The translations under genes were made by a program, and so were the position numbers. From Psychromonas ossibalaenae ATCC BAA-1528 (GTDB taxonomy: Bacteria; Pseudomonadota; Gammaproteobacteria; Enterobacterales; Psychromonadaceae), in assembly GCF_000381745.1 (NCBI RefSeq), contig NZ_KB906974.1, forward strand, positions 61,537 through 125,536: a DNA stretch of 64,000 nucleotides. Reading direction: 5' to 3'. Below are positions 4,514 through 56,999 of the stretch, one piece after another (positions within the stretch are counted from its first letter, which is position 1; each line of letters opens with the position of its first letter). The notes under the pieces were generated by a model, which saw nothing but the letters and a program-made list of their open reading frames with translations, was not told the DNA's origin and made no database searches.

Positions 4514-4544
4514 CTTGTGTTTTTACTTTTTTGTGAAACACAAG
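4514..4544. repeat. Hairpin without a T tract
   Basis: A perfect 9-bp inverted repeat CTTGTGTTT/AAACACAAG lies between the small membrane protein and the binding-protein gene. No T run follows on either strand, so it is not a standard terminator. It may be a processing hairpin. Confidence 0.4.
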
Positions 4545-40580: not shown

Positions 40581-41794
40581 TACCTATGTTACAGCAGATT
40601 GTGCAGATGCTTTTTGCTCATCGTCTGCGCAGTCTGCTGGCCATTACAGCAGTTGTATGGGGAATTGTTTCAGTATTAGTCCTGATGGCATTAGGTGAAG
40701 GTTTTTATCAGATCAATGCCAGGCAGTTTTCATTATTAATGAGTGATACCCAGCTTGCTCTTCCGGAAGTAACCAGTAAACCCTGGAAGGGACGGCCTGC
40801 CCGCCGGGAGATTTCTTTCACTGAGCCTGAATTTCGTTTATTAGAAAAACAGTCCGCGATAAAAGCGGTGTCGGTCTTATACCAGAAATGGGATGCGTCG
40901 GTGACAGATATAACCGGGCATACGCTGCCCGGTTATATTCGCGGTGTAGACAATCATTATATTGATATGCGTAAAATAAAACTGGCTGCCGGCTCGCGAA
41001 ATATTAGTCGTCATGATATCAACAGACACAGCCGTATTACCGTTATCGGCTGGCAGCTGGCGCAGCAGGGCGGTTTGTCTATCGGTGACAAGCTGCGGGT
41101 TAACGGTATTCCTTTTATTATAACGGGCATTACCCGGCAGAGTGAAGGCGGCATGTCCATGGGACGTGAAGATAATCAAGTGCTTATTCCCAGCAGCACG
41201 TTTACGGATCTGTGGAGCGATAAACCTGTGCAGGTGATGGTTACACCGGCCCCCGGCATTTCAGGCGTGGTGCTGCGTAAAAATTTATTGTCGTTTTTTG
41301 CCAGTCAAAAACACTTTGATCCTAGCGATAAACGTGCAATGTGGCTTCCTGATTTTAGCCAGGATGTTAAATTTTTTACCACTCTACTGCGCGGCATACA
41401 GTTATTTCTTGGTGCAAGCGGTGCGATGACATTAGCGGTCGGCGCATTAGGTGTTGCTAATATTATGTTTTTATCGGTAACTGAGCGAACCAGGGAAATT
41501 GGTGTGCGCCTGGCGATTGGTGCGACGCCGACTAATATCCTGGTGCAGTTTCTGCTCGAAGGGGGAATGCTGGTATCGATCGGAACGGTCATAGGCGTCG
41601 CTGTTTCTTATGTTTTAATCCTGCTGATGAATCAGATGGGCCTGCCTGACTGGCTCGGCACTCCGGTGATCAGTGTTGATGCGGTGTTAATGGCGCTCTC
41701 TGTGACCGTGGTTCTGGCATTGCTGGCTTCATTTTTTCCGGCACGCCGAGCTGCAAACCTGATCCCCGTTACAGCATTAAGTGCGAGGGCCTAA
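40577..41794 (+). CDS. MacB-like ABC transporter permease (1)
   Basis: A 405-residue inner-membrane permease with one N-terminal helix (about 18-40), a periplasmic MacB_PCD domain (about 45-240) and three C-terminal FtsX-type helices (about 275-400) including the conserved RTREIGVRLAIGAT segment. Its ATG overlaps the TolC-gene stop by four bases. Unlike MacB it carries no fused ATPase; the ATPase is a separate gene at the operon end. Confidence 0.92.
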   Translation: MIPMLQQIVQMLFAHRLRSLLAITAVVWGIVSVLVLMALGEGFYQINARQFSLLMSDTQLALPEVTSKPWKGRPARREISFTEPEFRLLEKQSAIKAVSVLYQKWDASVTDITGHTLPGYIRGVDNHYIDMRKIKLAAGSRNISRHDINRHSRITVIGWQLAQQGGLSIGDKLRVNGIPFIITGITRQSEGGMSMGREDNQVLIPSSTFTDLWSDKPVQVMVTPAPGISGVVLRKNLLSFFASQKHFDPSDKRAMWLPDFSQDVKFFTTLLRGIQLFLGASGAMTLAVGALGVANIMFLSVTERTREIGVRLAIGATPTNILVQFLLEGGMLVSIGTVIGVAVSYVLILLMNQMGLPDWLGTPVISVDAVLMALSVTVVLALLASFFPARRAANLIPVTALSARA

Positions 41795-41795
41795 C

Positions 41796-43076
41796 ATGAT
41801 TGCATTTCGTCAGATTATACAGGAGATGGCGGCTGAAAAGCTGCACCTTGGACTGACCATTTTAGCGATTGCCTGGGCGACCGTTTCTATTGCTTCTATG
41901 CTTGCGGTTGGAGAGGGATTACGGCAAGGGCTTATTCGTACCACCAGTAACGGTAACGGGGATCTAATTATTTTAACGGGTGGCTTTGCAACGCTGGATT
42001 ACGGTAATTTTTCTAAAGGTAAACAGTTAAACCTGAAACCTGACGATGTTGATGTATTGCGGGCTTTACCTTCGCTGGCGCAAGTAGAACCAAGTGCTGT
42101 GTGGGCCTCTTCTGTCACTTTTAAGGACAACGGCACCTGGCAGCAGCCGCTGGCTGTTTATCCGCAGTATAAAGAGTTGACCGGTCTGCAGGTTACCGCC
42201 GGCGGGCGCTGGTTTAATCCTTTAGATATTAAAGAGCAGCGTAAAGTTATTGTGATCGGTAGAAATGCCGCAGTCAGTTTATTTAATGAAGATGATGATT
42301 ATGACTGGGATAATACTCCTGATCTTGAAGCTTCGCCCATCGGCAGGCAGGTTAAAGTCGGTGAAGAAAAATTTACAGTTATCGGTATATTAAAAAACAA
42401 CCCGTCTAATATAGAAAACGGCACCCCGATTGATTACGCGGTGTTTGTGCCTTTTACAACCTGGCAGCGCTTTCATGTAAATCCTTCATTAGGGGCAATA
42501 AACATTAAACCGGCACCCGGGGCTGATCGTGAAAAAGCGGCAGCAACGGCGCGCCAGGTTATTGCCCGAAAATATGGCGCCACTACTGAAGATATGCAGC
42601 TGGTGCAGGCTCAGGATATGCTTTTAAGGCAGAAAACGATGCGTCAGTTTTTAATTGCTCTGCAGAGCTTTCTGGGCATTATTGGTCTGGTAACCTTAGC
42701 TGTTGCCGGTATTGGAATCGCTAATGTTATGTATGCCACAGTAAAACGTGCAACGCGTGATATCGGTATTAGAATGGCTGTTGGAGCAAAGCCGGGCGCT
42801 ATTAAACTGCATTATCTTATTCAGGCGTTTATTACGATTTCCATTGGCGGGGCGATCGGTCTGACGTTAACTTATGCGCTGGTGCAGCTGCTGCAGAATA
42901 TTCCAATTCAGGGAAGCGGGTTTTACGATTATCTCGGACAGCCGACGCCGGAACTGTCATTTTCCATTGTCAGTGTCGTTATCTTTGCATTAAGTGTTAT
43001 CGGTATTGCCGCTGCCTGGTTTCCTGCGAACCATGCAGCCGGTATTACCCCCTTAGAAGCATTACAAAGTGAATAA
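41796..43076 (+). CDS. MacB-like ABC transporter permease (2)
   Basis: A 426-residue permease of the same topology as its upstream neighbour: N-terminal helix, large periplasmic domain (about 45-275) and three C-terminal helices with RATRDIGIRMAVGAK. The ATG at 41796 has GAGGG six bases upstream and begins one base after the previous stop codon. A GTG at 41781 in the same frame is less likely. The two permeases differ enough to suggest a heterodimeric exporter. Confidence 0.92.
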   Translation: MIAFRQIIQEMAAEKLHLGLTILAIAWATVSIASMLAVGEGLRQGLIRTTSNGNGDLIILTGGFATLDYGNFSKGKQLNLKPDDVDVLRALPSLAQVEPSAVWASSVTFKDNGTWQQPLAVYPQYKELTGLQVTAGGRWFNPLDIKEQRKVIVIGRNAAVSLFNEDDDYDWDNTPDLEASPIGRQVKVGEEKFTVIGILKNNPSNIENGTPIDYAVFVPFTTWQRFHVNPSLGAINIKPAPGADREKAAATARQVIARKYGATTEDMQLVQAQDMLLRQKTMRQFLIALQSFLGIIGLVTLAVAGIGIANVMYATVKRATRDIGIRMAVGAKPGAIKLHYLIQAFITISIGGAIGLTLTYALVQLLQNIPIQGSGFYDYLGQPTPELSFSIVSVVIFALSVIGIAAAWFPANHAAGITPLEALQSE

Positions 43077-43096
43077 TTTTTTATTAGAGGAAGAGC

Positions 43097-43816
43097 ATGC
43101 CGTTAGTTAAACTTGAAGGTGTCACTAAGCACTACGAAAGTGGTGATGAAAGCGTCTATGCGCTGGATGATGTCAGTCTTATTATTTATAAAGGTGAGTT
43201 CTTATCAATTCTCGGCCCTTCGGGCTCCGGCAAGTCTACTCTGATGAATGTTTTAGGCTGCTTAGATAAACCTACATCGGGTTTCTATCAGTTAGATGAT
43301 CACGATGTATCAACACTCAGCTGTAATCAACTGGCTGCAATTCGTAATAATAAAATTGGTTTTATTTTCCAGAGTTTTAATTTACTGGAATATGCAACTG
43401 CATTGGAAAATGTAATGCTGCCGCTGGTCTATGCCGGGGTTAATATTAAAAAGCGTCGGGCTAAAGCAGCAGAGCTGCTGAAACGGGTTGGATTAGAAGA
43501 TCGTATGAGTCATAAACCTAATGAACTTTCCGGCGGACAGAAACAGCGTGTTGCCATTGCTCGTGCACTGGTTAATGATCCGCAGATTATCCTGGCCGAT
43601 GAGCCGACCGGCGCGCTGGATTCAAAATCAGGTGCTGAGATTGAAGCGCTGTTCAGCGAGCTGCATCATGAAGGGCGTACACTAATTGTGGTAACTCATG
43701 ATATTTCTCTGGCTCGCCGCACCAAACGTATTATTAATATTAAAGACGGGAAAGTCGTAGAAGATGAAATACTGGATCGTTCATCGGCAATTTATAGGAG
43801 AAGAGAAGGGGATTAA
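43097..43816 (+). CDS. ABC transporter ATPase (MacB/LolD type)
   Basis: A 239-residue ATP-binding subunit with Walker [10 protein letters not shown] (about 40-48), a Q-loop in [21 protein letters not shown], signature LSGGQKQR, Walker [12 protein letters not shown] and the switch His in VVTHD. The sequence belongs to the MacB/LolD/FtsE-like class that drives mechanotransmission export. It is the last gene of the five-gene operon, with an AGAGGAAGAG ribosome site. Confidence 0.94.
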
Positions 43817-43861
43817 AGGATAAAGCGTTTGATAATCAGCTTATTGACCTTTCTTGGGGGC

Positions 43862-43891
43862 AGGGCCTGTCTGTTATAGAAAACAGGCCCT
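43862..43891. repeat. Inverted repeat after the efflux operon
   Basis: A perfect 9-bp stem AGGGCCTGT/ACAGGCCCT with a 12-base loop lies between convergent genes. No T run is adjacent, so its role as a terminator is uncertain. Confidence 0.5.
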
Positions 43892-43929
43892 ATGTTAACG
43901 AGTTCAAAATTACTGTCGATCACCCGCTA

Positions 43930-44367
43930 TTATTCTTTAAGATAAACAATTAATAAGTCTGAAACGGCTGTTTTTACGAATTTACTCACTGAAGTTGTTA
44001 TATTACTCCAGAGATCATGATGGTGTCCGCAAACCAGCAGATCCACATCCTTATTTATAATTGTTGTGTGCAGTTTGTCGTTCAAATCACCCATTACCAC
44101 CCAGGTGTTGGTGACCGGGTAATCAACCTGATCGGCTAACTCCTGCAGCTCTTGAGTAAGTCGTTCGACCTCCTGTACATTATCATCATGTACTATCAGC
44201 TTACCCGTTTTCGGCTGGCGTAATGCTATGTTGCTTACATACTTAACATCAACAAAAATAAATGAAAGCGTACAATTAGCATCTTTAGCTAACGAGACAC
44301 CTTTATCGATCACTTCCTTACTGGATTTAGATAAATCAACAGCAACTAATATATGTTTATAGCTCAT
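43930..44367 (-). CDS. uspA: UspA-type universal stress protein (copy 1)
   Basis: A 145-residue cytoplasmic universal stress protein. It begins at ATG 44367, because GGAGG lies just upstream and MSYKHILVAVDLSKSS is the usual N-terminus; a longer TTG reading is unlikely. The C-terminal part, CGHHHDLWSN followed by DLLIVYL, resembles E. coli UspA rather than the ATP-binding UspF/G class. It is a close paralogue of the gene at 52037-52477, which flanks the other side of the stress gene set. A shared upstream block with a sigmaS-like -10 lies about 250 bases from the start. Confidence 0.92.
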   Translation of the reverse strand: MSYKHILVAVDLSKSSKEVIDKGVSLAKDANCTLSFIFVDVKYVSNIALRQPKTGKLIVHDDNVQEVERLTQELQELADQVDYPVTNTWVVMGDLNDKLHTTIINKDVDLLVCGHHHDLWSNITTSVSKFVKTAVSDLLIVYLKE

Positions 44368-44791
44368 GTAATCCTCCAAATTTGATCTCTCATTGTTAAT
44401 CGCAATACATAAAACAGGTAAACAATCTATAGGTTAACCTTAAGGTTGTTATCAGTCTGCTTCCGGTATTTATTATTTATAACTGGCTGCACTGCTGAAA
44501 TTTTTTAAAGCTTTGCAGACTTTTATGAAATAAAAATAACCGCTTAATAAACCTCATAGTTAATTAGTATTAATGTATTTTATGCAGTGTAAAAACACAT
44601 TATTAATGTGTTTAGTCTAAGTTTAGCAGCACTATTGTATTTTTCATTTACTTACGAGTTTTTATTGCCGTCTTTATACATTATGCAAAATACCCATAGC
44701 AGTTATTTCGATTTGAGTAAGTAAGAACCTTTGTTCCTACTGGAGGCTGAAAACCCCTCTCTTTGTGTTGCTGAGCATTCATTTAGAATAA
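44368..44791. other. Upstream region of uspA copy 1
   Basis: No gene is visible. The stretch holds the conserved usp element at 44602-44658 and an imperfect hairpin (GTAAGAAC/GTTCCTAC, 44721-44740) beyond the small membrane gene. Confidence 0.5.
44602..44658 (-). promoter_or_regulatory. Conserved usp upstream element with sigmaS-like -10 (copy 1)
   Basis: 57 bases align without gaps to the block at 52688-52744 upstream of the other usp gene (44 of 57 identical by hand count). On the minus strand it contains TAAATGAAAAAT and then TGCTAAACTTA, which fits the sigmaS extended -10 KCTAYACTTAA at 9 of 11 positions (44617-44627). Confidence 0.6.
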
Positions 44792-44956
44792 TTAAACCTC
44801 ATTGATAAAAGGCGGCTGCAGCAGCGTACCTGCTGTTTGTCTTTGTGAATCTGTCTGGCTAGAGACTGTCCATGCATAAAAACTCAGTGCAATGAACAAT
44901 ATAATGCAGGCAAATAGTGACATTACCAGTATACGAATTTTCAGTTTAGATCTCAT
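44792..44956 (-). CDS. Small single-pass membrane protein (54 aa)
   Basis: A short gene starting at ATG 44956, with a strong AGGAGG eight bases upstream, and ending at TAA 44792. The product begins MRSKLKIRI, has one hydrophobic helix (about residues 9-30), and a polar Gln/Thr-rich tail ending PPFINEV, so it is a likely inner-membrane protein with its tail in the periplasm. It lies 38 bases downstream of the HtrA protease gene on the same strand, in the hsp20-degQ transcription unit. A helper or regulator of the protease is conceivable but unsupported. I do not recognise the family. Confidence 0.65.
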   Translation of the reverse strand: MRSKLKIRILVMSLFACIILFIALSFYAWTVSSQTDSQRQTAGTLLQPPFINEV

Positions 44957-44993
44957 GACTGCCGCCTCCTAAAACTCTCCCTGCCTGACAGCG

Positions 44994-46361
44994 TTAGCGG
45001 ATAATAACAAACAATGAGCGTCCGCCGCGTTTAATCTGCAGAACCAGCAGTTTATCTTTCATCCCGACCGCCTGATTCAAGGACTGTAAGTTGTAAACCT
45101 GCTGTCTATTGGCCGCCGTGACAATATCACCCACTTTAAGGCCGTTATATGCTGCAGGTGAATTGTCATTTAAAGCAGTAACCACTACCCCGCGGTTATT
45201 ACGGGTATTTTCAAATTCGACACCTTCAAGCAGGGGATTAAAGCGCTGCTCGTTGAGGGTGATCATTTGAGGATCGCCGATTTTTACGATCAGCTGTTTT
45301 TCATCGCCGTCCCGAAGCAGTGTTAATTTAACCTTGTCTCCGATATTTTTAATTCCGATACTGCTGCGCAGCTGTCCGGCTGAGCGGATAATTTTTTTAT
45401 CCGCTTTTAAGATAATATCTCCGGGAAGAATGCCGGATTTATCAGCCGGTGAATCTTTAACTACGTCGGTGACCAGTACACCGAGCTGGCCGTTTTTCAA
45501 ATTGAATGCCTGATGCAGATCCGGGGTAATATTATGAATACTGATACCAAGTTGTCCGCGTTGAACCTCGCCGTTAGCAATTATCTGCTCCATACTGGCT
45601 TTTGCCATATTAGCCGGAATTGCAAAACCAATACCGATATTACCGCCTGAGGGGGCGATAATTGCGGTATTGATACCAACCAGCTGCCCGGCTAAATTAA
45701 CCAGTGCACCGCCTGAATTACCCGGGTTAATTGACGCATCGGTCTGAATAAAATTTTCATATCCCTCAATACCTAAACCGCTTCGCCCGAGCGCACTCAC
45801 CACACCTGTGGTGACGGTTTGCCCTAAACCAAAAGGATTACCGATAGCGACCACGAAATCACCCACTTCAAGCTGATTTGAGTCTGCTAGCTGTACTTGT
45901 GTGAGGTTATCTGCATCAACCTGCAGGATGGCAATATCTAAGTCCGGATCGACCCCGACTAATGATGCGTTATAATTGCGGCCGTCAGTCAAAGATACCT
46001 TTATTTCCTGCGAATTTTTTATGACGTGATAATTGGTCATAACAATACCGTCCGATGCATTAACAATGACACCTGATCCGGCACTCTGCTGGCGTTTCTT
46101 TGGTCTAGACTGCTGCTGTCTAGGCTGATCCGGAATATTGAAAAAATGTCTGAAAAACGGATCGTTTAACAGCGGATTGATATTCTGCCTGTGTGTTGAG
46201 TATGTGGATATATTAACAACTGCCGGGTTAATTACTTTGAGCATCGGCGCGAGAGACGGGTAAGGTTTTCCGTCCACATCCCTATAAGGAATGGCGGCTG
46301 AAGAGAGTTGAGAAAAGAGTATTAATACACTCGCAATAATTACTGCGGATAATTTATTCAT
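44994..46361 (-). CDS. degQ: DegQ/HtrA periplasmic serine protease
   Basis: A 455-residue secreted protease-chaperone for misfolded envelope proteins. The signal peptide is about 1-22 (cleavage after SSAA). The trypsin-like domain has the full catalytic triad His112 (TNYHVI), Asp142 (DLDIAIL) and Ser215 (GNSGGA), with a Gln/Arg/Lys-rich LA-loop (about 78-93). Two PDZ domains follow (about 262-350 and 375-450). The total length is that of DegQ (455). It lies downstream of the IbpA-type gene on the same strand. Since this appears in a stress gene set rather than beside degS, it may be an extra paralogue. Confidence 0.93.
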   Translation of the reverse strand: MNKLSAVIIASVLILFSQLSSAAIPYRDVDGKPYPSLAPMLKVINPAVVNISTYSTHRQNINPLLNDPFFRHFFNIPDQPRQQQSRPKKRQQSAGSGVIVNASDGIVMTNYHVIKNSQEIKVSLTDGRNYNASLVGVDPDLDIAILQVDADNLTQVQLADSNQLEVGDFVVAIGNPFGLGQTVTTGVVSALGRSGLGIEGYENFIQTDASINPGNSGGALVNLAGQLVGINTAIIAPSGGNIGIGFAIPANMAKASMEQIIANGEVQRGQLGISIHNITPDLHQAFNLKNGQLGVLVTDVVKDSPADKSGILPGDIILKADKKIIRSAGQLRSSIGIKNIGDKVKLTLLRDGDEKQLIVKIGDPQMITLNEQRFNPLLEGVEFENTRNNRGVVVTALNDNSPAAYNGLKVGDIVTAANRQQVYNLQSLNQAVGMKDKLLVLQIKRGGRSLFVIIR

Positions 46362-46401
46362 TTAGATGCCTCCAGTGAATGTGAATAAAATATTGTTGTC
46401 A

Positions 46402-46437
46402 TTAATAAAACGGCCGTGGCAGTGCTGCTGCCGCGGA
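46402..46437 (-). terminator. Hairpin/partial terminator between hsp20 and degQ
   Basis: On the minus strand the stem CCGCGGCAG/CTGCCACGG (46436-46414, one G-U pair) is followed by CCGTTTTATT. Because only 91 bases separate the two genes, it may attenuate rather than end transcription and let the chaperone exceed the protease. Confidence 0.6.
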
Positions 46438-46452
46438 CCTATGTTAAAACAG

Positions 46453-46902
46453 TTAATCTGATTTGTGCTCAATAACGTTTGACCGATCATTGATGCTGAT
46501 AGATTTAGGTTTCATTGCTTCCGGTATCTCTTTAGTTAAACCGATAGTAAGTAAACCGCAGCTGAGATCTGCACCTGTTACTTCTACATAATCAGCAAGG
46601 CTAAATTTTCGTTCGAAGGCGCGGTGGGCAATACCCTGATGAAGATAGCAGCGCTCCTCATCCTGCGCTTTTTTACCACGAACAGTGAGTACACCTTGTT
46701 CCACACTGATATCAAGATCCTCGCGAGTAAATCCCGCTAAGGCTAATTGAATGCTGTAGCGCTGGTTATCAATTGCCTCAATATTATAAGGTGGAAAGCC
46801 TGCCGTAACGGTATCAGCACTTAATGCGTTGTCTAAAAGGTCGGCAAAACGGTCAAAGCCGATACTGTTGCGATATAGAGGGGTAAAATCAATTGCTTTC
46901 AT
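46453..46902 (-). CDS. ibpA: IbpA-type small heat shock protein (Hsp20)
   Basis: A 149-residue cytoplasmic holdase. The N-terminus FTPLYRNSIGFDRFADLLDN and FPPYNIEAID match the IbpA/IbpB class. The alpha-crystallin domain (about 38-125) ends with the conserved GLLTIGL, and IPEAMKPKSISIN forms the C-terminal extension, with an IxI-like ISI motif (about 136-138) for oligomerisation. AGGATAAGAAC precedes the ATG. It is the first gene of an hsp20-degQ-small membrane protein unit. No sigma32 promoter of good quality is visible upstream, but a 9-bp direct repeat is. Confidence 0.93.
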   Translation of the reverse strand: MKAIDFTPLYRNSIGFDRFADLLDNALSADTVTAGFPPYNIEAIDNQRYSIQLALAGFTREDLDISVEQGVLTVRGKKAQDEERCYLHQGIAHRAFERKFSLADYVEVTGADLSCGLLTIGLTKEIPEAMKPKSISINDRSNVIEHKSD

Positions 46903-47206
46903 GTTCTTATCCTCCGTTAGAAGCAGTAAAAAAATAAATACAACATCTGTCGCTGCACCACTCTTAGAGCCGCTGCACCGACATTAATATTACTAAGGCC
47001 GGTATGAAAAAACACAAGTATGAAACATAAAGTTTGATTTATTTTTGATTCCTGTTGTTTTGTGCACTCAGGCTGGTGCTTATTTTTCTAAAACCTATTA
47101 CTAACTGCCTGTATTTTAGATAACTATTGGCACATACTTAATCAGTTAAAGGTTGTGTCGGTAGCTTTTTTGACTAACGTTAATTCTCTACAGGAAATCC
47201 TAGACA
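46903..47206. other. Divergent promoter region of hsp20 and the antiporter
   Basis: The 304 bases contain the direct repeat CGCTGCACC at 46951-46959 and 46971-46979 (20-base spacing, two helical turns) on the hsp20 side. CACATACTTAA at 47131-47141 on the antiporter side is a weak sigmaS-like -10. Confidence 0.45.
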
Positions 47207-49213
47207 GTGAATTATTCAGGCTCTGAAATATTAATCGCGATACTGGTTTTTCTGTCAGCGGCTGTGATCAGCAAAGCGGCTGCAGTGCGTCTGCGTATCC
47301 CTTTTCCAATTGTGCTGATGCTGGCTGGGCTTGTACTGCACAGTTCACAGGAAGTACTGGCATTACCGCTTAACGCATTAACTTCAGAAGAATTCTTTCA
47401 CGATATTATCCTTATGCTCCTCCTTCCAACCATAGTCTTTGAAACGGCTTACAATATGGACATCAGCAAACTGTCTGCTAACCGTCTGGCAATATTTGTA
47501 CTAGCGGTGCCGGGCGTATTAATTTCTACCTTAGTTGTGGCTGCATTAGTCTATCTGTTTACCCCGCTTAACTGGCAGTTCGCTCTGCTTCTGGGGGCCG
47601 TTTTGAGTGCTACGGATCCCAGCGCGGTTATCTCGGTGTTTCGTCAGCTTGGGGCGCCTAAAGATCTGATTATGCTGATTGAAGGTGAAAGTTTGTTCAA
47701 CGATGCTACGGCCATTACGCTGACGAAGATACTGGTGCTCAGTTTTGCCGCTGCACAGGGATTCCTGCCGATGCTCTACAACGGCAGCAGTCTTTTTTTA
47801 ATAAGCCTGTGCGGAGGGAGCTTATGCGGCTGGATACTCGCGCGTCTGCTGCTGCAGCTGTTCAATAAAATACCGGACGACCCTTTCCTGGAAATCAGTC
47901 TCAGCCTGTTGTTAGCATTCGGCAGTTACCTGTTTGCAGAAAAGCTTCTAGATGCCAGCGGTATAATTGCAGTAACGGTGGCGGGCATCACTCTGGCAAC
48001 CCGGTCGCCGCTCCCAATTTCACGAAAGTCGCAGCAGTATCTGAATCATTTATGGTCTTACCTCTCGTTTATGGCCATGGCCTGCATCTTTCTGATGGTG
48101 GGTTTATGGATGGATTTGACGCTGCTGTGGCAGAATGCTGGAGTATCACTGATTGTTCTGGGGGCATTGTGGTTGTCTCGTGCATTGACTGCATATGCTC
48201 TACTTCCGCAGATAGGGCGCCTGCAGCATCAGGCTAAAGTTGTGTGCATTGAATACCGGCATATTGTCTTTGTCGGCGGCATGCGTGGTGCGGTAACTAT
48301 GGCGCTGGCAATGGGCCTGGTGACACTGACCGAAGATCAAACGATTCTGTCAGTGACGGTCAATGTGGTGTTTTTAACGACTCTGCTTCAAGGACTGTTA
48401 ATTTCACCCTTGGTTTCCTATTTAGGTTTAAAAGCACGAGATGTAAATGACAGTATTGCCTGTACGGAACTCACCTTGTCGGCTCTGCGCCATAGCCGCA
48501 AAGTGCTGCAGCCTCTATTTAACTCTACGTTTGCTAACACCGGTGCACCGCAGGAATTTTCCATTAAACTGACGCTGCTGATCGAATCGCAGGAGAAGCA
48601 GCTTAAGCACTGGGTCAGCACGGAAGTCGGTCCGGTTGGTTTATGGCACCGACTTATGCTGCGCTGTGCCAGTATCGAAATAGGTCATCTGTATCGATTA
48701 TTTGATCAGGGACTGATCAGAACGGTTGTTTTTGAAGCACTGAAAAACTCATTAGATGAGCAGATGGAGGCGGTTCGTCATCAATATCAAAGACCAGCAT
48801 TTGCTCAGCTTCCTGGACAGCTTTCCGGCTTCTACCAGAGGAGAAAATCCAAGCTGACTGCTGCGACGCAAACACAGATAGAGCTTGAATATGAGATGGC
48901 CTGGGCCAGGTTATTCAGCTGTAATACCGTGCTCGATGCATTAAAAACATGGAGTGAGGAAGAAAATATTCCAGCGCCTGTCGTAGCAGGAGTCGCTAAA
49001 ATATGGCAGGGCTGGCTGATGAGTTGTGAAGCAAAAATTGCACTGATAGAAGAGAAGCATCCGGTGATATCAGCTGGAGTGCAGCGCAGGCTGTTAAAAA
49101 ATTACCTGATGACTGCACAATCCGAGTATTTGCAGCAGTACGTACAGCAGTATTTGATCACAGAGGCGGATGCGGAGCATATCAAGGCTTTGCTGAAATC
49201 ATTGCAAACTTGA
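47207..49213 (+). CDS. CPA1-family Na+(K+)/H+ antiporter with long C-terminal domain
   Basis: A 668-residue inner-membrane antiporter with about 12 helices in residues 5-410. The CPA1/NhaP signatures are visible: the ion-site ATDPSAVISVF, EGESLFNDATAI, and GGMRGAVTMALAMGL. A soluble C-terminal region of about 250 residues is helical with no recognised nucleotide-binding (RCK) domain, and is probably regulatory. It reads from GTG 47207 with AGGA upstream. It is divergent from the hsp20 gene and precedes the Clp gene by 157 bases. Probable role: pH, sodium or volume homeostasis under stress. Confidence 0.9.
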   Translation: MNYSGSEILIAILVFLSAAVISKAAAVRLRIPFPIVLMLAGLVLHSSQEVLALPLNALTSEEFFHDIILMLLLPTIVFETAYNMDISKLSANRLAIFVLAVPGVLISTLVVAALVYLFTPLNWQFALLLGAVLSATDPSAVISVFRQLGAPKDLIMLIEGESLFNDATAITLTKILVLSFAAAQGFLPMLYNGSSLFLISLCGGSLCGWILARLLLQLFNKIPDDPFLEISLSLLLAFGSYLFAEKLLDASGIIAVTVAGITLATRSPLPISRKSQQYLNHLWSYLSFMAMACIFLMVGLWMDLTLLWQNAGVSLIVLGALWLSRALTAYALLPQIGRLQHQAKVVCIEYRHIVFVGGMRGAVTMALAMGLVTLTEDQTILSVTVNVVFLTTLLQGLLISPLVSYLGLKARDVNDSIACTELTLSALRHSRKVLQPLFNSTFANTGAPQEFSIKLTLLIESQEKQLKHWVSTEVGPVGLWHRLMLRCASIEIGHLYRLFDQGLIRTVVFEALKNSLDEQMEAVRHQYQRPAFAQLPGQLSGFYQRRKSKLTAATQTQIELEYEMAWARLFSCNTVLDALKTWSEEENIPAPVVAGVAKIWQGWLMSCEAKIALIEEKHPVISAGVQRRLLKNYLMTAQSEYLQQYVQQYLITEADAEHIKALLKSLQT

Positions 49214-49307
49214 TTTTATATGATGAAAAACATAATGCTCAACAGGGTAACTAACACAATAATAATGCAAGGAATTTTTAGGAAACTACACTTAGGTCAG
49301 TAGTATG

Positions 49308-49327
49308 AACTGTTTACGCAAACAGTT
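49308..49327. promoter_or_regulatory. Palindrome upstream of the Clp ATPase gene
   Basis: AACTGTTTACGCAAACAGTT has perfect 8-base arms and a four-base centre, and lies 44 bases before the start codon. It is a good candidate operator for a dimeric regulator. It does not resemble the CtsR operator of Gram-positive clpC genes. Confidence 0.55.
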
Positions 49328-49370
49328 GTTTAGCGCTGAGAATGAAAGTAGATACATATAGGAGTAGACA

Positions 49371-51860
49371 ATGACTGACTTAGTTACCCCTGCCGGTTCG
49401 GGGGCAATGCTTCATAATTATGTGCAGAAAAGTACCCAGAGGGTGATTAACTGTCTGGAGATGGCGTTTGCTGAGTTAGCCAGTCTGCAGCAGAACGTAC
49501 TTACTGCAGACTTTCTGCTGCTGGCGCTGCTTTCTCAGCCGGACAGTGAAGCGCGTAAAGTACTGCAGGAACTGCTCCCAGATACAGAGGAGTCTGTTAA
49601 GCGTATTATCGGGCAGGTTCGCCAGCAGTATCGTAATGTTTCAGCAACACAAGCGCAGCAGATAGTTGCATCCCGGGAAATTCCTGAAGTATTCCGCATT
49701 GCCTATGGTGAAGCAAAGAACCTGGGTGATGATTATATCGGTACCGGCACGCTGCTGATTGCGCTTTTTGATAAGGAAGCCGGGCCTGCGGCGGTTCTGC
49801 TGGAAAATGAAGGCATGACAGCGGATGCCGCGCGTCAGACCCTTAAACGCATCCGGGCAGGGCGTACGCTCAACAGCCAGGACGGTGAAAGCAAGCAGGA
49901 TGTGCTGCAGATCTATACCAAAGATCTGACCGAAATGGCGCGTAACGGTGAACTGGATCCGGTTATCGGGCGTGACGATGAAATTGCTCTGATCATCCAG
50001 ACACTTTCCCGCCGTAAAAAAAACAATCCAGTGTTGATCGGCGAACCAGGTGTCGGCAAAACAGTGATCGTGGAAGGGCTGGCGCAGAGGATTGTAGCCG
50101 CCGATGTGCCCGATACGCAGCTTAACAAACGCCTGCTTGCTTTGGATATGGGAGAACTGGTTGCCGGTGCCGCCATGCGCGGCGAGTTTGAAGAGCGTTT
50201 AAAGTCGGTACGTGATGCGGTTATCCAGGCCGGCGGCAAAGTCATTTTGTTTATTGATGAACTGCATACTGTTGTTGGTGCAGGAGCAGGTTCCGGCGGG
50301 CTTGATGCGCCCAGCCTGCTTAAGGCCGCCTTAGCTCAGGGAAGTCTGCAGGTTATCGGAGCGGATACGCTGGATGAATATCGAAAATATGTAGAGGTAG
50401 ATAAAGCACTGGAGCGGCGTTTTCATCCGGTGCTGGTGAGAGAGCCGAGTATTGAAAACACGGTTGAGATATTAAAAGGTATTGCTCCGCGTTATGAAAA
50501 ACATCATAACATTCATTATTCGCCGAATGCTTTTGAAGCGGCTACGCGTTTAGCTGAACGTTATATTACTGACAGACGTTTACCAGACAAAGCGGTGGAT
50601 CTGCTTGATGAAGCCGGATCCCGTAAACACTTAAGTATCACTGCTATTCCACAGAATCTACGCGATTGTGAGCGCAGGCATCAGAGGCTGCTGCGGGATA
50701 AAACCGACGCTTTTAATGAACAGAATTTTGAGCAGGCCGCGCAGCACCAGATGGAAATACTTCAAGTTGAAGAACAGCTTAAAAGTGTACGCAGCAGCTG
50801 GCAGCTGGGACGCTCTAAAGAAGATGATATAGTAAGTGAAGATGATATTGCTGAAGTTGTAGCACGCTGGACGGGCATTCCTGTTGCTCGTATGGTGGAG
50901 TCCGAGTCAGATAAACTGGCTAGAATGGAGGAAAAACTGCACAAACGCATTGTCGGACAGGAGGATGCGGTGCGTACGGTGGCGGATGCTATCCGCAGAA
51001 ACCGTTCCGGTATTACTTCAAGCCAGCGTCCCATTGGATCGTTCCTTTTTCTAGGTCCTACCGGAGTCGGAAAAACTGAGCTGGCGCGTGCTTTGGCGGC
51101 TTTTCTTCTTGACGATGAGTCAAGAATTGTCCGTTTAGATATGTCGGAGTATATGGAGCGCCATGAAGTTTCCAAAATGATTGGTGCGCCTCCAGGATAT
51201 ATTGGTTATGGTGAAGGAGGGCAGTTAACCGAGCGTGTTCGTCATAATCCTTATACTGTGGTGCTGCTTGATGAAATGGAAAAAGCCCATCCCGATGTGT
51301 TTAATATGCTTCTGCAGATTCTCGAAGACGGGCAGCTTACGGATGCTCTTGGTCGTACCGTGTCATTTCGTAATACCGTGCTGATAGGTACTTCTAACCT
51401 TGGGACTGACACGCTGCAGCCCGATAAACGGCGTATCGGTTTTGTGCACTCGGAAATGCCCAATTATAAAGAAGCGCAGCAGCTGGTGATGCACGAAGTT
51501 AAAAAGTTCTTTAAGCCTGAATTTCTTAACCGTCTTGATGATATTATTGTGTTTCACTATCTGGAAAAAAACCATGTTCATCAGATAGCTGAGATGTTCG
51601 TCACGGAGCTGGTGGAGAGAATGCTGCTCAAAGATATAAAGCTTGAAGTGGATAAAGCGGTTATTAATAAACTGTCACAGGACGGCTTTGATCCCATCTA
51701 CGGTGCTAGACCTTTACGCCGGGAAGTGGAGCGTCAGATTGAAAACCCGCTGGCAATGAAAATAGTAAAAGGTTTATGCCCGGATAACAGCCGCGTGCAG
51801 GTCAAGGTTAAAAACAAAGAGGTTGTCTTTAAAATTAGTGCTGTTGACGGGGGACTTTAG
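49371..51860 (+). CDS. ClpC-type AAA+ unfoldase (Clp/Hsp100)
   Basis: An 829-residue Hsp100 ATPase. The Clp_N domain repeats occupy about 13-160. The first AAA+ domain has Walker A GEPGVGKT (224-231) and Walker B LFIDE (293-297). A short coiled-coil middle domain (about 425-475, as in ClpC and about half the ClpB length) follows. The second AAA+ domain has GPTGVGKT (562-569) and VVLLDE (630-635). Residues 689-691 are IGF, at the position of the ClpP-docking loop, so it should feed ClpP rather than act only as a disaggregase. ClpC-type proteins are unusual in gammaproteobacteria, where ClpA and ClpB dominate. A ribosome site AGGAG lies at 49360-49364. No clpP or adaptor gene is nearby. Confidence 0.9.
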
Positions 51861-51883
51861 AGATTTTGAAATATTTTTTATGA

Positions 51884-51921
51884 TTTTTACTGACCAGCGC
51901 CAGCTCTTGTTAGTAAAAATG
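51884..51921. repeat. Hairpin after the Clp ATPase gene
   Basis: ATTTTTACTGAC pairs with GTTAGTAAAAAT (one G-U) around a 14-base loop. There is no T run beyond the stem, but the A/T-rich arms may still aid termination between these convergent genes. Confidence 0.4.
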
Positions 51922-52036
51922 AAAGCCCGTTCTGGCTAGGTTAAACTCAGAAAACAGATACTGCTCACGGGGCGGTAATAAACGCCAGGTTAACATTAAA
52001 GCTGCTGTCAAAACCGCCCGTAACCCGTTGACTGTA

Positions 52037-52477
52037 TTAGTCTTCTTTATCAAGGTAAACAATAAGCAGATCGCTGACTGCGGTCTTGATAAATTTTTTC
52101 ACTGACGTTGTCATATTGCTCCAGAAATCATGATGGTGTCCGCAAACTAAAAGATCTATATCCAGCCCTTTAATTGCCGTATGCAGTTTCTGATTTAAAT
52201 CTCCCATTACCACCACAGTCTCTGCGACTGGGTAATCACAGCGGTCTGCCAGTGCTTGAAGCTGTTGGTGCAGCTCATGTTTTTCTTTTTCATTATTCAT
52301 CGCGGCTAATTTTTCAACTTTCGGCTGAGCCAGTGCGATACTGCTGACAAAACTAACATCCACAAAAATAAATGACAGTTTAGCATCTGCATCTTTGGCC
52401 AATTCAACAGCTTTATTGATCACTTTCTCACTGGATTTAGATAAATCAACAGCGACTAATATATGTTTATAGCTCAT
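52037..52477 (-). CDS. uspA: UspA-type universal stress protein (copy 2)
   Basis: A 146-residue paralogue of the protein at 43930-44367, sharing MSYKHILVAVDLSKSS at the start and CGHHHD-WSN-TTSV-KF near the end, and lying on the same strand about 8 kb away. As in copy 1, a conserved block with a sigmaS-like -10 lies upstream (about 226 bases). The pair brackets the hsp20-degQ-antiporter-Clp genes. Recent duplication or recruitment to a common regulon would both explain this. A GGAGGAATACC ribosome site precedes the ATG. Confidence 0.92.
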   Translation of the reverse strand: MSYKHILVAVDLSKSSEKVINKAVELAKDADAKLSFIFVDVSFVSSIALAQPKVEKLAAMNNEKEKHELHQQLQALADRCDYPVAETVVVMGDLNQKLHTAIKGLDIDLLVCGHHHDFWSNMTTSVKKFIKTAVSDLLIVYLDKED

Positions 52478-53161
52478 GGTATTCCTCCCTATTTTATCTC
52501 TTGTTTTAACAGCAGATACATAAAAAAATTCACCTGACGGCCGCTGTTTTCCAGCTTGTTATTATTCACCACTGTTTATTCGGCCCTGCATCAATTGATG
52601 CGTTTGATTTGGTGAAAGCAAAATAACGAAAGCCTAAAATCTATTGTCTGCCAGTAATAATTTAATTTATGCGCCCCACAACAGATCATTAATCTGCTTA
52701 CTATAAGTCTAGCACCAGTAGTAGATTTTTCATTTACCTATGACTTATTAATAGTCGATGTGAGTGCTTATTATCACTTTGTTAAGCGGCTCATTTTGTT
52801 GGGTGAAAAAATCATCAACGAACAACGTTGAGAAGAACGCCTGGTTGCTTTTTGTACTGGCAGGATGGGTTAAAATTATTACGCCTATAACTTAATAGAT
52901 GCATTACTGCCTATAGAGGGGTGTTTTTGTGTCTTTCTTGATGTTGATTGTGATATTTATGTCAATGACTCCTGAGAAAGTGGCTTTGATTACATAAAAA
53001 CATACCTCTTTAAGTGTAAATAAAGGATTAAAGGGCTTTTATTTTTATCTCTGCTCAGGTTTAATAAGCCTACTTATTTAGGAGTATAAATAAGCCCAAT
53101 GGAAATGATGTGCTCAGTTAAAGCATGTCGTAAATAAACACGGATTTTAAGGATATATGTT
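52478..53161. other. Divergent region between uspA copy 2 and the fimbrial operon
   Basis: 684 bases without a gene. It contains the conserved usp element and presumably the fimbrial promoter. I see no invertible-switch inverted repeats around the fimbrial start. Confidence 0.5.
52688..52744 (-). promoter_or_regulatory. Conserved usp upstream element with sigmaS-like -10 (copy 2)
   Basis: Partner of 44602-44658. On the minus strand it reads TAAATGAAAAAT, then TGCTAGACTTAT, matching KCTAYACTTAA at 9 of 11 positions (52703-52713). Confidence 0.6.
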
Positions 53162-53629
53162 ATGAAAAAGTTATTAGTTGCCACTGCTTTAGTTACCACT
53201 ATGTTTTCTGCCGGCGCACTTGCGGCGACAGGAGACCAGATAACTAAATCAATTCAAGTAACAGCAACTGTACCGTCATCAACATTTTCAGTTGAGCCTA
53301 CGGCTGGTCAATGGCCAACTCAGGTTGAACTGAATTACGATGTGAATGTTGGTTTTGATTCGTGGAATACAACGCTTAAATCCGTTTCAGGTGATGGGGT
53401 AAACGCATCTTTGATGGGTACACCTATGCTGGTAAGCGGTCAGCACAGTATTCCATTAATCGTTACCGTAGGCACTCAGGTGCTTGACAATACACCCAGG
53501 AAAGTTGCCGATGACGCGGCTGTTCACGGGATTGCGTTAAGTGTTACTACCGACAATAGTGGTTATGCCACGTTTGAGGCGGGTAACTACTCGGGCACAG
53601 TACAGCTGGTATTTGAAGACAATATTTAA
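53162..53629 (+). CDS. CS1-type fimbrial major subunit (pilin)
   Basis: A 155-residue secreted protein with a signal peptide (1-21, cleavage ALA-ATG) and a beta-rich mature part without cysteines, beginning near DQITKSIQVTATVPSSTFSV, as in the alpha-fimbrial pilins of the CFA/I-CS1 family (CooA-like). These use donor-strand exchange on an alternate chaperone-usher pathway. AAGGA lies nine bases before the ATG. It is followed by a strong hairpin and then the chaperone, usher and tip genes, the standard order for this family. Confidence 0.85.
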   Translation: MKKLLVATALVTTMFSAGALAATGDQITKSIQVTATVPSSTFSVEPTAGQWPTQVELNYDVNVGFDSWNTTLKSVSGDGVNASLMGTPMLVSGQHSIPLIVTVGTQVLDNTPRKVADDAAVHGIALSVTTDNSGYATFEAGNYSGTVQLVFEDNI

Positions 53630-53640
53630 TCTTTTCACCC

Positions 53641-53675
53641 ATACCTGCATGGCTTACGTCATGCAGGTATTTTTA
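53641..53675 (+). terminator. Intra-operon terminator/attenuator after the pilin gene
   Basis: A perfect 11-bp stem ATACCTGCATG/CATGCAGGTAT (53641-53651 with 53660-53670) and an 8-base loop are followed by TTTTT. Partial termination here would make pilin more abundant than chaperone and usher. Confidence 0.9.
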
Positions 53676-53713
53676 CTTTGTATCCCCTGAATAAAAATAA
53701 TTAAGAGGTTTTG

Positions 53714-54484
53714 ATGTTTAACAAAATACTTCCCTTTACTCTTGCGCTGTTTTTTACTGCGGGCGCTGCGGCATCAGTAAAAACGGTTACGGTACCGCAG
53801 GAGATGACCGTACTTACCTCTGATAATTCCAGTTCAGTGCTGAAAATTAGAAGTGCTGATAAAACAGAACCCACATATATTAAAGCTTCGGTATTTGAAG
53901 TTGACGAGAGCAGTATCGGAACCGGTAAAGAGATACTGACCCCGGTTGAAGGCGAGTTGAAAAAGAACGGCTTGGTCGTGCAGCCTGAAAAATTTGCCAT
54001 GGCACCCGGCGGCTCTTCCACGGTAAGACTTATTTATACGGGCAAGGAAGCACGCCAGGATCGTTATTTTAAGATCCGCTTTCAGCCGGTATTAAAATAC
54101 GATCTTATAGGTGAAGCGGAAAAAGATGAGGCTCTGGATGCCAATCTTTTCTTTTCTATTACCTCAACGGGTTTTGCCGTAGTGCCGAAAAAACAACCCG
54201 AGTACGCACATACAGTCAGCAGTGCTGATTTTACGACCGATATAACGAATGTTGGTGACAGTTTGATGCTGCTGCAGGACTGCACTGTCTGCGTTGACAG
54301 CGCCTGTATTTCAGAAACTGAAAAACGTCTGACACCGGGACGCACTATTAGCCTTGCAGGTGAACCAGAGGTAGTAGCAGACTTTAAGAAAGAAAATGGC
54401 AAAGCGCCTTCCGGACGCTGGCAGTGTGATCTTATCACGCCGAATGGTGAGGATAAGATGCAGGTTCTTCAAGGCAAGTGGTAG
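53714..54484 (+). CDS. Alternate-pathway fimbrial chaperone (CooB-like)
   Basis: A 256-residue periplasmic chaperone with a signal peptide (about 1-19, cleavage AGAAA) and an immunoglobulin-like N-terminal domain. It carries residues for pilin C-terminus anchoring and donor-strand complementation (the strand FAMAPGGSSTVRLIYTGKE corresponds to the G1 region). ATG 53714 follows AAGAGG at a five-base spacing, and a TTG one codon earlier is less likely. It belongs to the alternate chaperone family used with CS1-type pilins, not the FimC/PapD class. It overlaps no gene and is in one operon with the usher. Confidence 0.87.
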   Translation: MFNKILPFTLALFFTAGAAASVKTVTVPQEMTVLTSDNSSSVLKIRSADKTEPTYIKASVFEVDESSIGTGKEILTPVEGELKKNGLVVQPEKFAMAPGGSSTVRLIYTGKEARQDRYFKIRFQPVLKYDLIGEAEKDEALDANLFFSITSTGFAVVPKKQPEYAHTVSSADFTTDITNVGDSLMLLQDCTVCVDSACISETEKRLTPGRTISLAGEPEVVADFKKENGKAPSGRWQCDLITPNGEDKMQVLQGKW

Positions 54485-54530
54485 AAATGTCATGTTATTT
54501 TCTTATAAACATAACCAGGGAGTGGTTAAG

Positions 54531-56999
54531 ATGTTTAAATTTTTCAACGCAGGCGGCGTGTTTCTGCTGCTTTGCAGCGGGCCGGTTTCGGCAACCTTAG
54601 TTTCAGATGCTGAATCCAAATTCAGCTCTGGCGTCCCGGAGGGGTTTGAGGGACTGCTGGAGGTCAATTCTCAGCCTATTAACCTAAATTATCGCGGTAA
54701 AGTGATCCACGATGGTTTTTTGCGCAAAGAGCAGGGAGCCGATTATTTTGAATCGTTATCGAGTCAGCAGGTTCGCTTAGATCAGAGGATAAAATGTTCG
54801 CAGAATGCGTTTATCTACACTTTATTAAACTGTGCCGATCAGGAATATGATATTGAAGTGACTCTTAGTGAGATATATAAAGGTGATGAACACTATATTT
54901 CGCTTACCCCTAGTTATACTTTTGTGAAACTGGTTAACCAGCGTTTTGACATTAAAGATGCTGACAGTGCCGCTGGTTTTCCAAGCAGCCAGCGTGAATA
55001 TATTGCTGACAGTTCAGTTGACAGTGTCAGCGGTGCGCTGGGGTATCATGCTAATGTCTCCTACGATGAACAATCAGAAAAAACGCGCAGCACAGTATCA
55101 GTAAACAGCCTGGTTTCTTACCAGGCGTTATTATTTGAATTTTCACCTACTTTCGAAGCGCAGACCGGCAGCATAAAAACAGACTCCCTGACAGGCTCCT
55201 ATTCTGAACAAGACTCTCGTTATACTCTTGGTTTTCGCGGACGCCATAATGCGCGGTTAACTTCTTCTACGGTGAATTTAGCACCAAATAAATCAGTGAT
55301 CGGTTTCTGGTATACTCAGACCGACGATTTACTGCGTTCCTCGGAGCAGGGGACGGGTGAACCGCTTTATACTTTCATGCCCTCTGCAGGAATGGTTGAA
55401 ATATATCGTGGTGAGCGTCTGCTTTATGTGAACCGCCATCCGGGCGGTCCGGTTGAAATCGCCACGTCAGACTTTCCAATTGGTTCATATAACGTCAGAA
55501 TAGTTAGGAAACCACAGGGAACAAAAGCGCTGGAGCCGATTGTTGTACAGCTGCACAACAGCAAAGCGACCAACAAATTTTCTTATATGCTCGGGCTGAG
55601 TCAAGATGAAGATCTGGGGGGCTATATATCGCTAAAAGAAAGTAATGGTGAATATGATGTTCCTTATTTAGGTTTGGCTTACCAGAGCCCGGTTATTCAG
55701 GTTATTGACGGTAGTATGTCCTGGTATAATGTTGATACGGTGAACTACGTTTCGGCAGGTCTTGATATCATCCGTCTATCCCCCTTTACTTTTAATGTTG
55801 ATACACAAATTTCCGAGCTGGGAGACTGGGGCATTGGTTTTAACGGCGCTTATCGACATACTCTTTTTGATCATGATGCATCATTATCATGGTCGCTGCA
55901 GACTGAAGAAAAGCGTGGTCTAGCGAAGGATGTTGCCAATATAAGTGCATTTTATTATCCGCAGGCGCAGTTTGTTGACTCGATCAGTTTGAATCTGACC
56001 GGGCGTCAGTATAAGTATGAAAATAATTACACTGATGAAAATACCTACTCAGAAATGTCTGTTTATCTTAAGAAGGATCTCAAGAGCCTTGTTAAACTCC
56101 CGGTGGATCTTGGTCTGTCCTTCTCTCAGAACTCTGAGGGTGATCTGACGACGATGCTGACAGCCTCTTTCTCCTTTGATTCACTATATGATGCAGACGT
56201 TACAGGCTCTTATTACCGTAATGGCGATAACAGTAATGCAGCTGAGGTTGGGATTTCAAAACGCTTTGAAGATTCGGCTGTCCGTCAGATCGGCGGCAGC
56301 GTGGGCGGCGGTGAGGATTATATCAACAGCTCAGTATTTACGGATCTGGATTTCCAGTACAGTGATATTCATCTAGGCCTGCAGAACACCATGGTCAGCG
56401 GTGACGGTTCCAGCAGTAACGGTTACGGATCGATGCGCGGCGGTGTGTACTTTTCCGGGGATCAGTGGGCACTGGGTAAGTCCGGTATTCAATCCGGTAT
56501 TATTGTTGATGTAGACGGCAGTGACGATGTTGCTGCTGGTACCGGCGTGTACGCCAGTATCAGTAATGCAGACAGTGTCGAGCTGCGGGGCGGTTCGCAG
56601 GTGATAGCGGTTAATCCTTACAGCGAAACGGATGTCCTGCTGACAACTATCGGCGCAGTTGCAGATGTTTACGAGATTAACTCGGTGAATTACCGTGGTA
56701 ACTTTGCTTATCATGAACTGCAGCTGCGGGAAACGGTTGCCATTGCCGGCATGGTGTCTACTGCAACTATTCAAGATGAGTATGTTAGGGTGAAAAATCA
56801 TGAGTCTTCGCTGAATATTGCGCTTGAAAAGGGACGCGAAGAGAAGAGTGCTTTTTTCCAGCTGACCGTGTCTAAGCAGCATCCGACGCTGGCGATATAT
56901 GACGGTGAGGAACTGTTATGTACAAAAAATTTATCGGAGCAGCTGGACAAGGCTAAAAACGGTTTCTTGTACGTAGGAGACATTAGTTGTGAAAGTTAA
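54531..56999 (+). CDS. Fimbrial usher, CS1/CooC type
   Basis: An 822-residue outer-membrane usher with a signal peptide (1-19) and an N-terminal periplasmic domain with a cysteine pair (CSQNAFIYTLLNC). A 24-strand-type beta barrel and plug region follow, typified by YRGERLLYVNRHPGGPVEIAT and FPIGSYNVRIVRKPQG, and a C-terminal domain ends in a disulfide-like CTK…DISCES. I choose ATG 54531, with GGGAG eight bases upstream and a proper signal peptide. A reading from 54396 or 54492 would add an implausible leader overlapping the chaperone gene. The usher assembles and secretes the pilus. Confidence 0.9.
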   Translation: MFKFFNAGGVFLLLCSGPVSATLVSDAESKFSSGVPEGFEGLLEVNSQPINLNYRGKVIHDGFLRKEQGADYFESLSSQQVRLDQRIKCSQNAFIYTLLNCADQEYDIEVTLSEIYKGDEHYISLTPSYTFVKLVNQRFDIKDADSAAGFPSSQREYIADSSVDSVSGALGYHANVSYDEQSEKTRSTVSVNSLVSYQALLFEFSPTFEAQTGSIKTDSLTGSYSEQDSRYTLGFRGRHNARLTSSTVNLAPNKSVIGFWYTQTDDLLRSSEQGTGEPLYTFMPSAGMVEIYRGERLLYVNRHPGGPVEIATSDFPIGSYNVRIVRKPQGTKALEPIVVQLHNSKATNKFSYMLGLSQDEDLGGYISLKESNGEYDVPYLGLAYQSPVIQVIDGSMSWYNVDTVNYVSAGLDIIRLSPFTFNVDTQISELGDWGIGFNGAYRHTLFDHDASLSWSLQTEEKRGLAKDVANISAFYYPQAQFVDSISLNLTGRQYKYENNYTDENTYSEMSVYLKKDLKSLVKLPVDLGLSFSQNSEGDLTTMLTASFSFDSLYDADVTGSYYRNGDNSNAAEVGISKRFEDSAVRQIGGSVGGGEDYINSSVFTDLDFQYSDIHLGLQNTMVSGDGSSSNGYGSMRGGVYFSGDQWALGKSGIQSGIIVDVDGSDDVAAGTGVYASISNADSVELRGGSQVIAVNPYSETDVLLTTIGAVADVYEINSVNYRGNFAYHELQLRETVAIAGMVSTATIQDEYVRVKNHESSLNIALEKGREEKSAFFQLTVSKQHPTLAIYDGEELLCTKNLSEQLDKAKNGFLYVGDISCES

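Follow-up and report, generated by a model that had tools for sequence, protein, structure and literature searches.

What kind of locus is it that gathers, in Psychromonas ossibalaenae ATCC BAA-1528, a small heat shock protein, an envelope protease, a cation/proton antiporter and a large unfoldase between two copies of uspA? The locus lies at positions 43930-52477 of a stretch of 64,000 nucleotides from contig NZ_KB906974.1 (hereafter the window). A sequence-only reading of this DNA had matched its functions to those of the transmissible locus of stress tolerance (tLST, or locus of heat resistance) and had suggested an independently assembled island. We lean slightly towards describing it as a chromosomal stress-protection neighbourhood, in which divergent hsp20-degQ-B and cpa1, clpC units lie between duplicated uspA genes, and whose recurring core is an accessory DegQ (the clade is named DegQ-B here) together with a ClpC-type Hsp100, accompanied by an exchangeable cytosolic chaperone (Hsp20, CbpA-CbpM or GroES-GroEL-Hsp20). 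The proteostasis neighbourhood is genuine but loosely conserved, and its distinctive parts are DegQ-B and the ClpC-like group.

Gene content and the two accessory paralogues

The window was compared with a genus set of 24 genomes, its own (G000) and 23 congeners, one of which, G023, groups with G000 as its sister in an rpoB species tree (96/84); searches were also run in 394 genomes of the order and 369 of the class. The seven open reading frames (ORFs) announced by the sequence-only reading are all present in the span. They form two divergent units, hsp20-degQ-B (with or without an orphan ORF) leftward and cpa1, clpC rightward, with a leftward uspA at either end:

43930..44379, minus strand: uspA copy 1, UspA-type (PF00582, 50 bits), with a counterpart at this position in G023 (88%)
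43933..44664: left arm of the uspA direct repeat (gene and upstream region, two blocks)
44792..44956, minus strand: 54-codon ORF downstream of degQ-B, with one hydrophobic stretch (seen by eye) and no family
44994..46361, minus strand: degQ-B, accessory Do-family periplasmic protease/chaperone (TIGR02037, 470 bits, cut-off 416)
46453..46902, minus strand: hsp20 (IbpA-type), first gene of the hsp20-degQ-B unit (PF00011, 65 bits)
47207..49213, plus strand: cpa1, CPA1-type cation/proton antiporter with a C-terminal extension of about 260 residues (PF00999, 193 bits)
49172..49208, plus strand: 3' end of cpa1 surviving as a relic in G023 (37-base BLAST match, E 3.6e-4)
49371..51860, plus strand: clpC, ClpC-type Hsp100 unfoldase, a double-AAA Clp whose closest solved structures are ClpC
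50163..50192, plus strand: D1 pore loop 1 of ClpC, residues 265-274, Met replacing Tyr/Phe
51423..51452, plus strand: putative ClpP-docking loop of ClpC, residues 685-694
52037..52477, minus strand: uspA copy 2 (PF00582, 66 bits), 71% identical to copy 1; also in G023 (90%)
52043..52750: right arm of the uspA direct repeat

The protein families proposed earlier held for the Usp, Do-family, IbpA-type, CPA1 and ClpC-type proteins, and not for the 54-residue ORF, which matches no family model, has no tblastn homologue at 1e-3 in the compared stretches of other genomes, and is doubtful as a gene; it may not be one, and it was dropped as a conserved part of the locus for want of a homologue. The likely start of uspA copy 1 is the ATG at 44367.

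The protease of the locus belongs to the Do (DegP/DegQ) family: it scores above the cut-off of TIGR02037, has two PDZ stretches, and contains His112, Asp142 and Ser216 in the motifs of the catalytic triad. It scores 441 bits with the DegQ model (cut-off 756) and 411 bits with the DegP model, below the cut-off in both cases. The earlier reading had proposed comparing the Clp and DegQ members with their core paralogues, and both turn out to stand apart from them. In a 30-row tree, the DegQ of the window and 11 others form a clade separate from 18 housekeeping-type rows (100/100), and the same genome encodes a second, housekeeping-type DegQ elsewhere (G000:C35); the degQ of the locus is a second, accessory paralogue. 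DegQ-B is found in 12 of the 394 order genomes (E<=1e-140), namely six of the 24 of the genus (G000, G001, G006, G013, G021 and G022), G024, which belongs to another family, and five genomes of another genus (g89). A search of a phage collection with DegQ returned 19 records, all below 60%, the top two being annotated as protease Do in Salmonella records.

The Hsp20 encoded upstream of degQ-B has IbpA as its best equivalog model, at 144 bits (under the cut-off of 212), and is the sole Hsp20 found in its own genome at E<=1e-6; the corresponding search in the genus covered G001-G015, G016-G023 lying outside it.

The Hsp100 is likewise additional to those of the genome, which encodes three more large Hsp100s, named ClpA, ClpB and ClpV from their length, sequence start and place in the tree. 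Its gene was detected in five of 99 genomes, all of the window's genus: its own, G023 (96%), G001 (86%), G021 (80%) and G006 (80%). Three of the 369 class genomes have it (E<=1e-250), again including the window's own, with G588 (71%) and G734 (68%), and four more gammaproteobacterial loci (67-74%) stand among the best 80 matches, the next locus being at 49%. This rare group thus comprises at least 11 sequences. A tree that includes eight of them unites all eight in a single long-stemmed clade (100/100), away from the Bacillota ClpC and ClpK rows and from the genome's own ClpA, ClpB and ClpV; the other three (L008, which ends at a contig edge, G588 and G734) are assigned to the group by 68-71% identity and motifs only. 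The clade stands beside the ClpC+ClpK group (89/87), an exact place that is unsure given the long ClpA, ClpL and ClpV branches.

The sequence of this Hsp100 has main features of a ClpC-type protein. All eight tree members retain the Walker A/B pairs of both AAA modules and the arginine fingers, the M-domain interval of the window protein is short (94 residues, as in the Bacillota ClpC rows, vs 155 in the genome's own ClpB), and a ClpP loop is present in 11 of 11 members (IGF, or VGF in G588), preceded by one extra residue. What it lacks is an aromatic residue in pore loop 1 of D1. All 11 group members have Met at this position, whereas 76 of 76 other sampled loci have Tyr or Phe; the best 80 loci divide into 57 with Tyr, 19 with Phe and 4 with Met, the four being group members, in a scan that took the first matching motif per locus, which may stem from another Hsp100 encoded there. 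The only other non-aromatic residue in the 30-row alignment is that of the genome's own ClpV (Ile). According to PMC5540906, ClpP is bound through the IGL/F motif, which is missing from ClpB and Hsp104, and tyrosines in the pore loops of the two rings are important when ClpA, ClpB and Hsp104 process their substrates. Since the IGF loop is present, the window ClpC is predicted to feed ClpP rather than to act as a stand-alone disaggregase, and it probably degrades its substrates rather than refolding them.

We tentatively propose that this Hsp100 could typify a gammaproteobacterial subfamily that is so far undescribed: ClpC-like and ClpP-docking, with a D1 ring that has lost its aromatic grip and may translocate mainly with D2. 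It would coexist with ClpA, and in some lineages a swappable chaperone slot (IbpA, CbpA-CbpM, GroESL) would link it to an accessory periplasmic protease. In the literature, most subscription journals being outside the coverage, we found no description of the ClpC group or of the DegQ-B/ClpC pairing. Proteins with Met in this pore loop offer a natural experiment on the role of the D1 ring in two-ring unfoldases.

Recurrence in relatives and regulation

If these genes act together, the IbpA-type Hsp20 would hold denatured cytosolic proteins, ClpC would pass damaged proteins to ClpP for destruction, DegQ-B would clear or refold damaged envelope proteins, and the antiporter would restore cytoplasmic pH and ions after shock. 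Is there any sign, in other genomes, that the genes belong together? The full set of seven is not conserved, as the window is its only case among the 24 genus genomes, but pairings of degQ-B with clpC and of degQ-B with cytosolic chaperones recur in other arrangements and with other flanks. In G006 and G021, cbpA-cbpM-degQB is encoded leftward and clpC rightward within about 6 kb; in G013 the order is groES-groEL-hsp20-degQB; and G024, from another family, has the hsp20-degQB pair. The cbpA and CbpM-like genes of G021 were checked by domain, Pfam calling the CbpM-like gene MerR_2. The flanks in G006 and G021 are unlike those of the window (by eye, peptidase, oxidoreductase and LysR genes to one side and YceI and cytochrome b561 to the other). 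As Hsp20 and CbpA-CbpM replace each other next to DegQ-B, having a cytosolic holder there seems to matter more than which one it is.

The two distinctive genes occur together in four of the 24 genus genomes (five carry clpC, six degQ-B), which gives a hypergeometric p of 0.006, or 0.021 without the window; among genomes that are at least 90% complete the values are 0.012 and 0.046, respectively, none of the four being corrected for kinship.

The contig of G013 that carries the locus is 5.2 kb long and comes from a genome that is 51% complete. On it (L166, G013:C48, positions 64-561 and 2269-4804), a groES-groEL copy is joined to hsp20-degQ-B, and an ORF for an IS1595-type transposase lies beyond degQ-B; this is possibly a mobile chaperonin-protease set.

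Some neighbours of clpC outside the set were recorded and are not counted as recurrences. Two of them, both beyond the genus, are suggestive. In a gammaproteobacterial metagenome-assembled genome, clpC is followed after about 10 bases by the gene of an M48 peptidase with TPR repeats (L007, 2975-4540), again an envelope-type protease beside ClpC. In L008 (5148-5765), the gene directly before clpC encodes a protein that looks secreted (by eye) and resembles Hsp20 weakly, narrowly missing the Pfam cut-off. About 3.5 kb from clpC in G734 (L247, 618-1172) lies a gene whose product matches DegQ in the PDZ part alone (30% over 100 residues). A gene with an aminoacyl-tRNA editing domain lies near clpC in two genera (L094 3275-3754, in G001, and L010 13723-14358), a link that was left at these two cases only.

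Several observations weigh against a conserved functional neighbourhood. None of the 23 congeners has the full set. The genomes G006 and G021 are close sisters in the rpoB tree, so that their clpC/degQ-B arrangement counts as one event. In G001, clpC and degQ-B are on different contigs, each amid unrelated, non-stress genes. DegQ-B has neither a chaperone nor clpC as a neighbour in seven of the 11 other genomes (G001, G022 and the five of g89), even if in one of the seven (G268, of g89) another Hsp20 lies about 1.5 kb from DegQ-B with one gene between. Outside the genus, no hsp20 or DegQ-protease match was found near clpC in six of six loci, and the Hsp20s linked to DegQ-B form no single clade in the tree. 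No positive sign of common regulation was found either. Upstream regions, 25 in total, were scanned with a hand-weighted sigma-32 consensus (300 shuffles each): no site was detected by this crude scan at the cluster hsp20, clpC, cpa1 or either uspA (p 0.29-0.98), no CtsR site was found at the cluster at up to 3 mismatches, and Rfam RNA thermometers gave no match at gathering score in 7 loci, with one match far below it in 43500-53000.

CIRCE is matched at the cluster only with 5 mismatches, the sigma-32 p values at cbpA of G006 and G021 are 0.16 and 0.79, and a motif upstream of clpC, sought by eye, aligns only within the G000-G023 and G006-G021 pairs. Three of the 25 regions reached p <=0.01, those of the genome's own clpB (<1/300), of groES in G013 (0.010) and of one congener's ibpA (L129, 0.007). 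The scan is weak, as it missed three of the four ibpA regions from congeners (one of them incomplete) and also the genome's own ClpA and ClpV; the sigma-32 result is absence of evidence. The genes may be regulated jointly, but nothing positive speaks for a single regulon, which is unproven.

The locus could therefore be read as a chance neighbourhood, in which unrelated stress genes lie side by side and only hsp20-degQ is an operon. The uniqueness of the full set within the genus, the dispersed genes of G001 and the lack of a common promoter all agree with it, and so does the antiporter, whose homologues elsewhere have no hsp20, degQ, clp or usp match nearby in nine of nine stretches of 8-17 kb. 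Against it speak the recurrence of degQ-B divergent from clpC in G006 and G021 with other flanks and that of hsp20-degQ-B in another family, and we consider this explanation doubtful.

History of the locus and its borders

Was the locus imported recently, in one possible sense of the assembled island suggested by the sequence-only reading? The sister genome G023 points the other way. It has the same locus (ABC export genes, uspA1, clpC and uspA2) without the 4.5 kb from 44670 to 49171, in place of which are about 155 bases that show no significant match to the missing stretch. Homology resumes in the last codons of cpa1, in frame: ADHIKVLLKSLQ in G023 vs AEHIKALLKSLQ in the window. This relic has a local score of 44, whereas 200 single-base shuffles do not exceed 29. 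The relic codons belong to cpa1, since the alignment of an antiporter homologue from G254 reaches residue 666 of 668. The antiporter is therefore most likely ancestral to G000 and G023 and was lost in G023. The hsp20 and degQ-B genes would have been ancestral there too, if a single deletion, the simplest account, removed the whole stretch.

Neither does composition single out the locus. The GC contents of degQ, hsp20, cpa1 and clpC are within about 1.2 standard deviations of the window mean, the uspA genes are AT-rich (GC 0.38-0.39), and the tetranucleotide distance of the cluster is below that of 54 of 56 sliding windows; import judged by composition was rejected, the cluster not being atypical for the window. 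The cluster has no near match in plasmids. Together with the loss in G023, these results do not support a recent import.

In the rpoB tree, whose base is unresolved for the genus, a clade of 16 genomes is devoid of clpC, all carriers lying outside it (the tree excludes G001 and G013, from which no rpoB was obtained, and G025, dropped before building). This distribution fits an old presence followed by loss as well as a single gain.

The antiporter scores 187 bits with TIGR00831 (CPA1) vs 28 bits with the CPA2 model, both below cut-off, and is assigned to CPA1 rather than CPA2; the relatives with solved structures include NHE and SOS1, and all are Na+/H+ exchangers. The relatives that share its C-terminal extension are those of G254 (39%) and of eight class genomes (28-35%); nothing above 39% was found in the 394 order or 369 class genomes (E<=1e-60), and 112 plasmid records were all below 60%, none covering 80% of the antiporter. 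None of the four other clpC carriers of the genus has it.

The uspA genes themselves suggest another scenario, a tandem duplication whose interval collected genes, the repeats marking a site that gains and loses cargo. Direct repeats had not been seen at the borders by the sequence-only reading; they are in fact there, formed by the uspA genes and their upstream DNA, in two pairs of blocks (43933-44414 vs 52043-52525, 71.9%, and 44566-44664 vs 52653-52750, 74.7%). The 4.5 kb that are present or absent between the sisters, clpC being retained, would suit such a site, all the more as the left breakpoint of G023 (44669) is 5 bases past the end of the left arm (44664). The right breakpoint, within cpa1, is far from any repeat, and clpC also occurs in G006 and G021, where no uspA match was found in the 19.9 kb read around it. 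This history is, in our opinion, improbable.

No transposase or integrase was recognised among the flanking ORFs of at least 150 residues, which were read by eye only. On the left, a MacAB-like export set occupies 39270-43816 (a TolC-like protein, two permeases and one ATPase, named by eye) and accompanies uspA1 in G023 (87-90%). On the right, beyond uspA copy 2, a fimbrial chaperone-usher set (subunit, chaperone, usher and tip-like protein, named by eye) extends from 53162 to 58116; it did not align to the DNA beyond uspA2 in G023.

Comparison with the tLST and other known systems

Like the tLST, the locus brings together an Hsp20 and an Hsp100 with a Deg-type protease and a cation/proton antiporter. 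Could it be a diverged or independently assembled tLST, which confers heat resistance by disaggregation? The references were the tLST of Enterobacter asburiae pCAV1043-51 and DegP-GI from an Acinetobacter plasmid. Of 12 tLST proteins used as tblastn queries on the whole window (threshold 1e-3), two gave a match, ClpK (42-43%) and DegP-GI (38%, to the Do-family protease); the locus Hsp20 is 32% identical to two tLST Hsp20s by blastp only, pairs that tblastn missed, so that weak homologues may escape it. Eight of the 12 proteins have no counterpart in the window, including YfdX1/2, HdeD, Trx, KefB, PsiE and HtpX, for which tblastn at E 10 gave chance-level pieces only. KefB is a CPA2 antiporter. 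The window Hsp100 scores 709 and 701 bits with the ClpK and ClpG models (cut-off 1900), its clade is separate from the two ClpK rows of the tree (which has no ClpG row), and both of these rows lack the IGF loop that it has.

The arrangement differs as well. According to PMC8290217, the core of the tLST is dna-hsp20-clpG, generally flanked by mobile elements; the main text of that paper names Psychromonas, ClpC and DegQ 0 times. In the window, the antiporter separates hsp20 from clpC, which is encoded on the opposite strand, and the flanking ABC export genes, which border the locus in G023 as well, do not indicate an island. The locus differs from the tLST in having one IbpA-type Hsp20, a CPA1 antiporter and not KefB, two divergent units, and an Hsp100 with a ClpP loop. 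By membership it is not a tLST. The earlier view that it covers the same four functions does not extend to the Hsp100: ClpG and ClpL are without the ClpP motif according to PMC11006417, and the window protein has one, so that a tLST-like mechanism probably fails for it too. The broad functions and the modest identities to ClpK, DegP-GI and the Hsp20s are what a tLST origin can claim; the missing proteins, the model scores, the separate clade, the lack of a near plasmid match and the loss at the site in G023 make it highly improbable. What stands of the original comparison is that function-matched proteostasis genes do cluster here, parts of which recur in relatives.

The Bacillota ClpC proteins (B. 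subtilis ClpC/MecB, S. aureus ClpC) are like the window protein in length, in the 94-residue M interval, in the Walker sets and in the ClpP loop, and solved ClpC aligns over residues 21-824; the window protein is 46-49% identical to them, falls outside their clade and differs from them by the Met of D1 pore loop 1, the extra residue before IGF and the lack of a CtsR site. E. coli DegQ and IbpA are the best NCBIfam equivalogs of the protease and of the Hsp20, which score under the respective cut-offs, DegQ-B being additional to a housekeeping DegQ. The cbpA-cbpM operon is absent from the window locus; it fills in G006 and G021 the slot that hsp20 has here, upstream of degQ-B, and is not known to be joined to degQ in E. 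coli. These comparisons separate mobile, aggregate-rescuing heat-resistance islands from chromosomal neighbourhoods in which an unfoldase of the ClpP-dependent type would be paired with an envelope protease.

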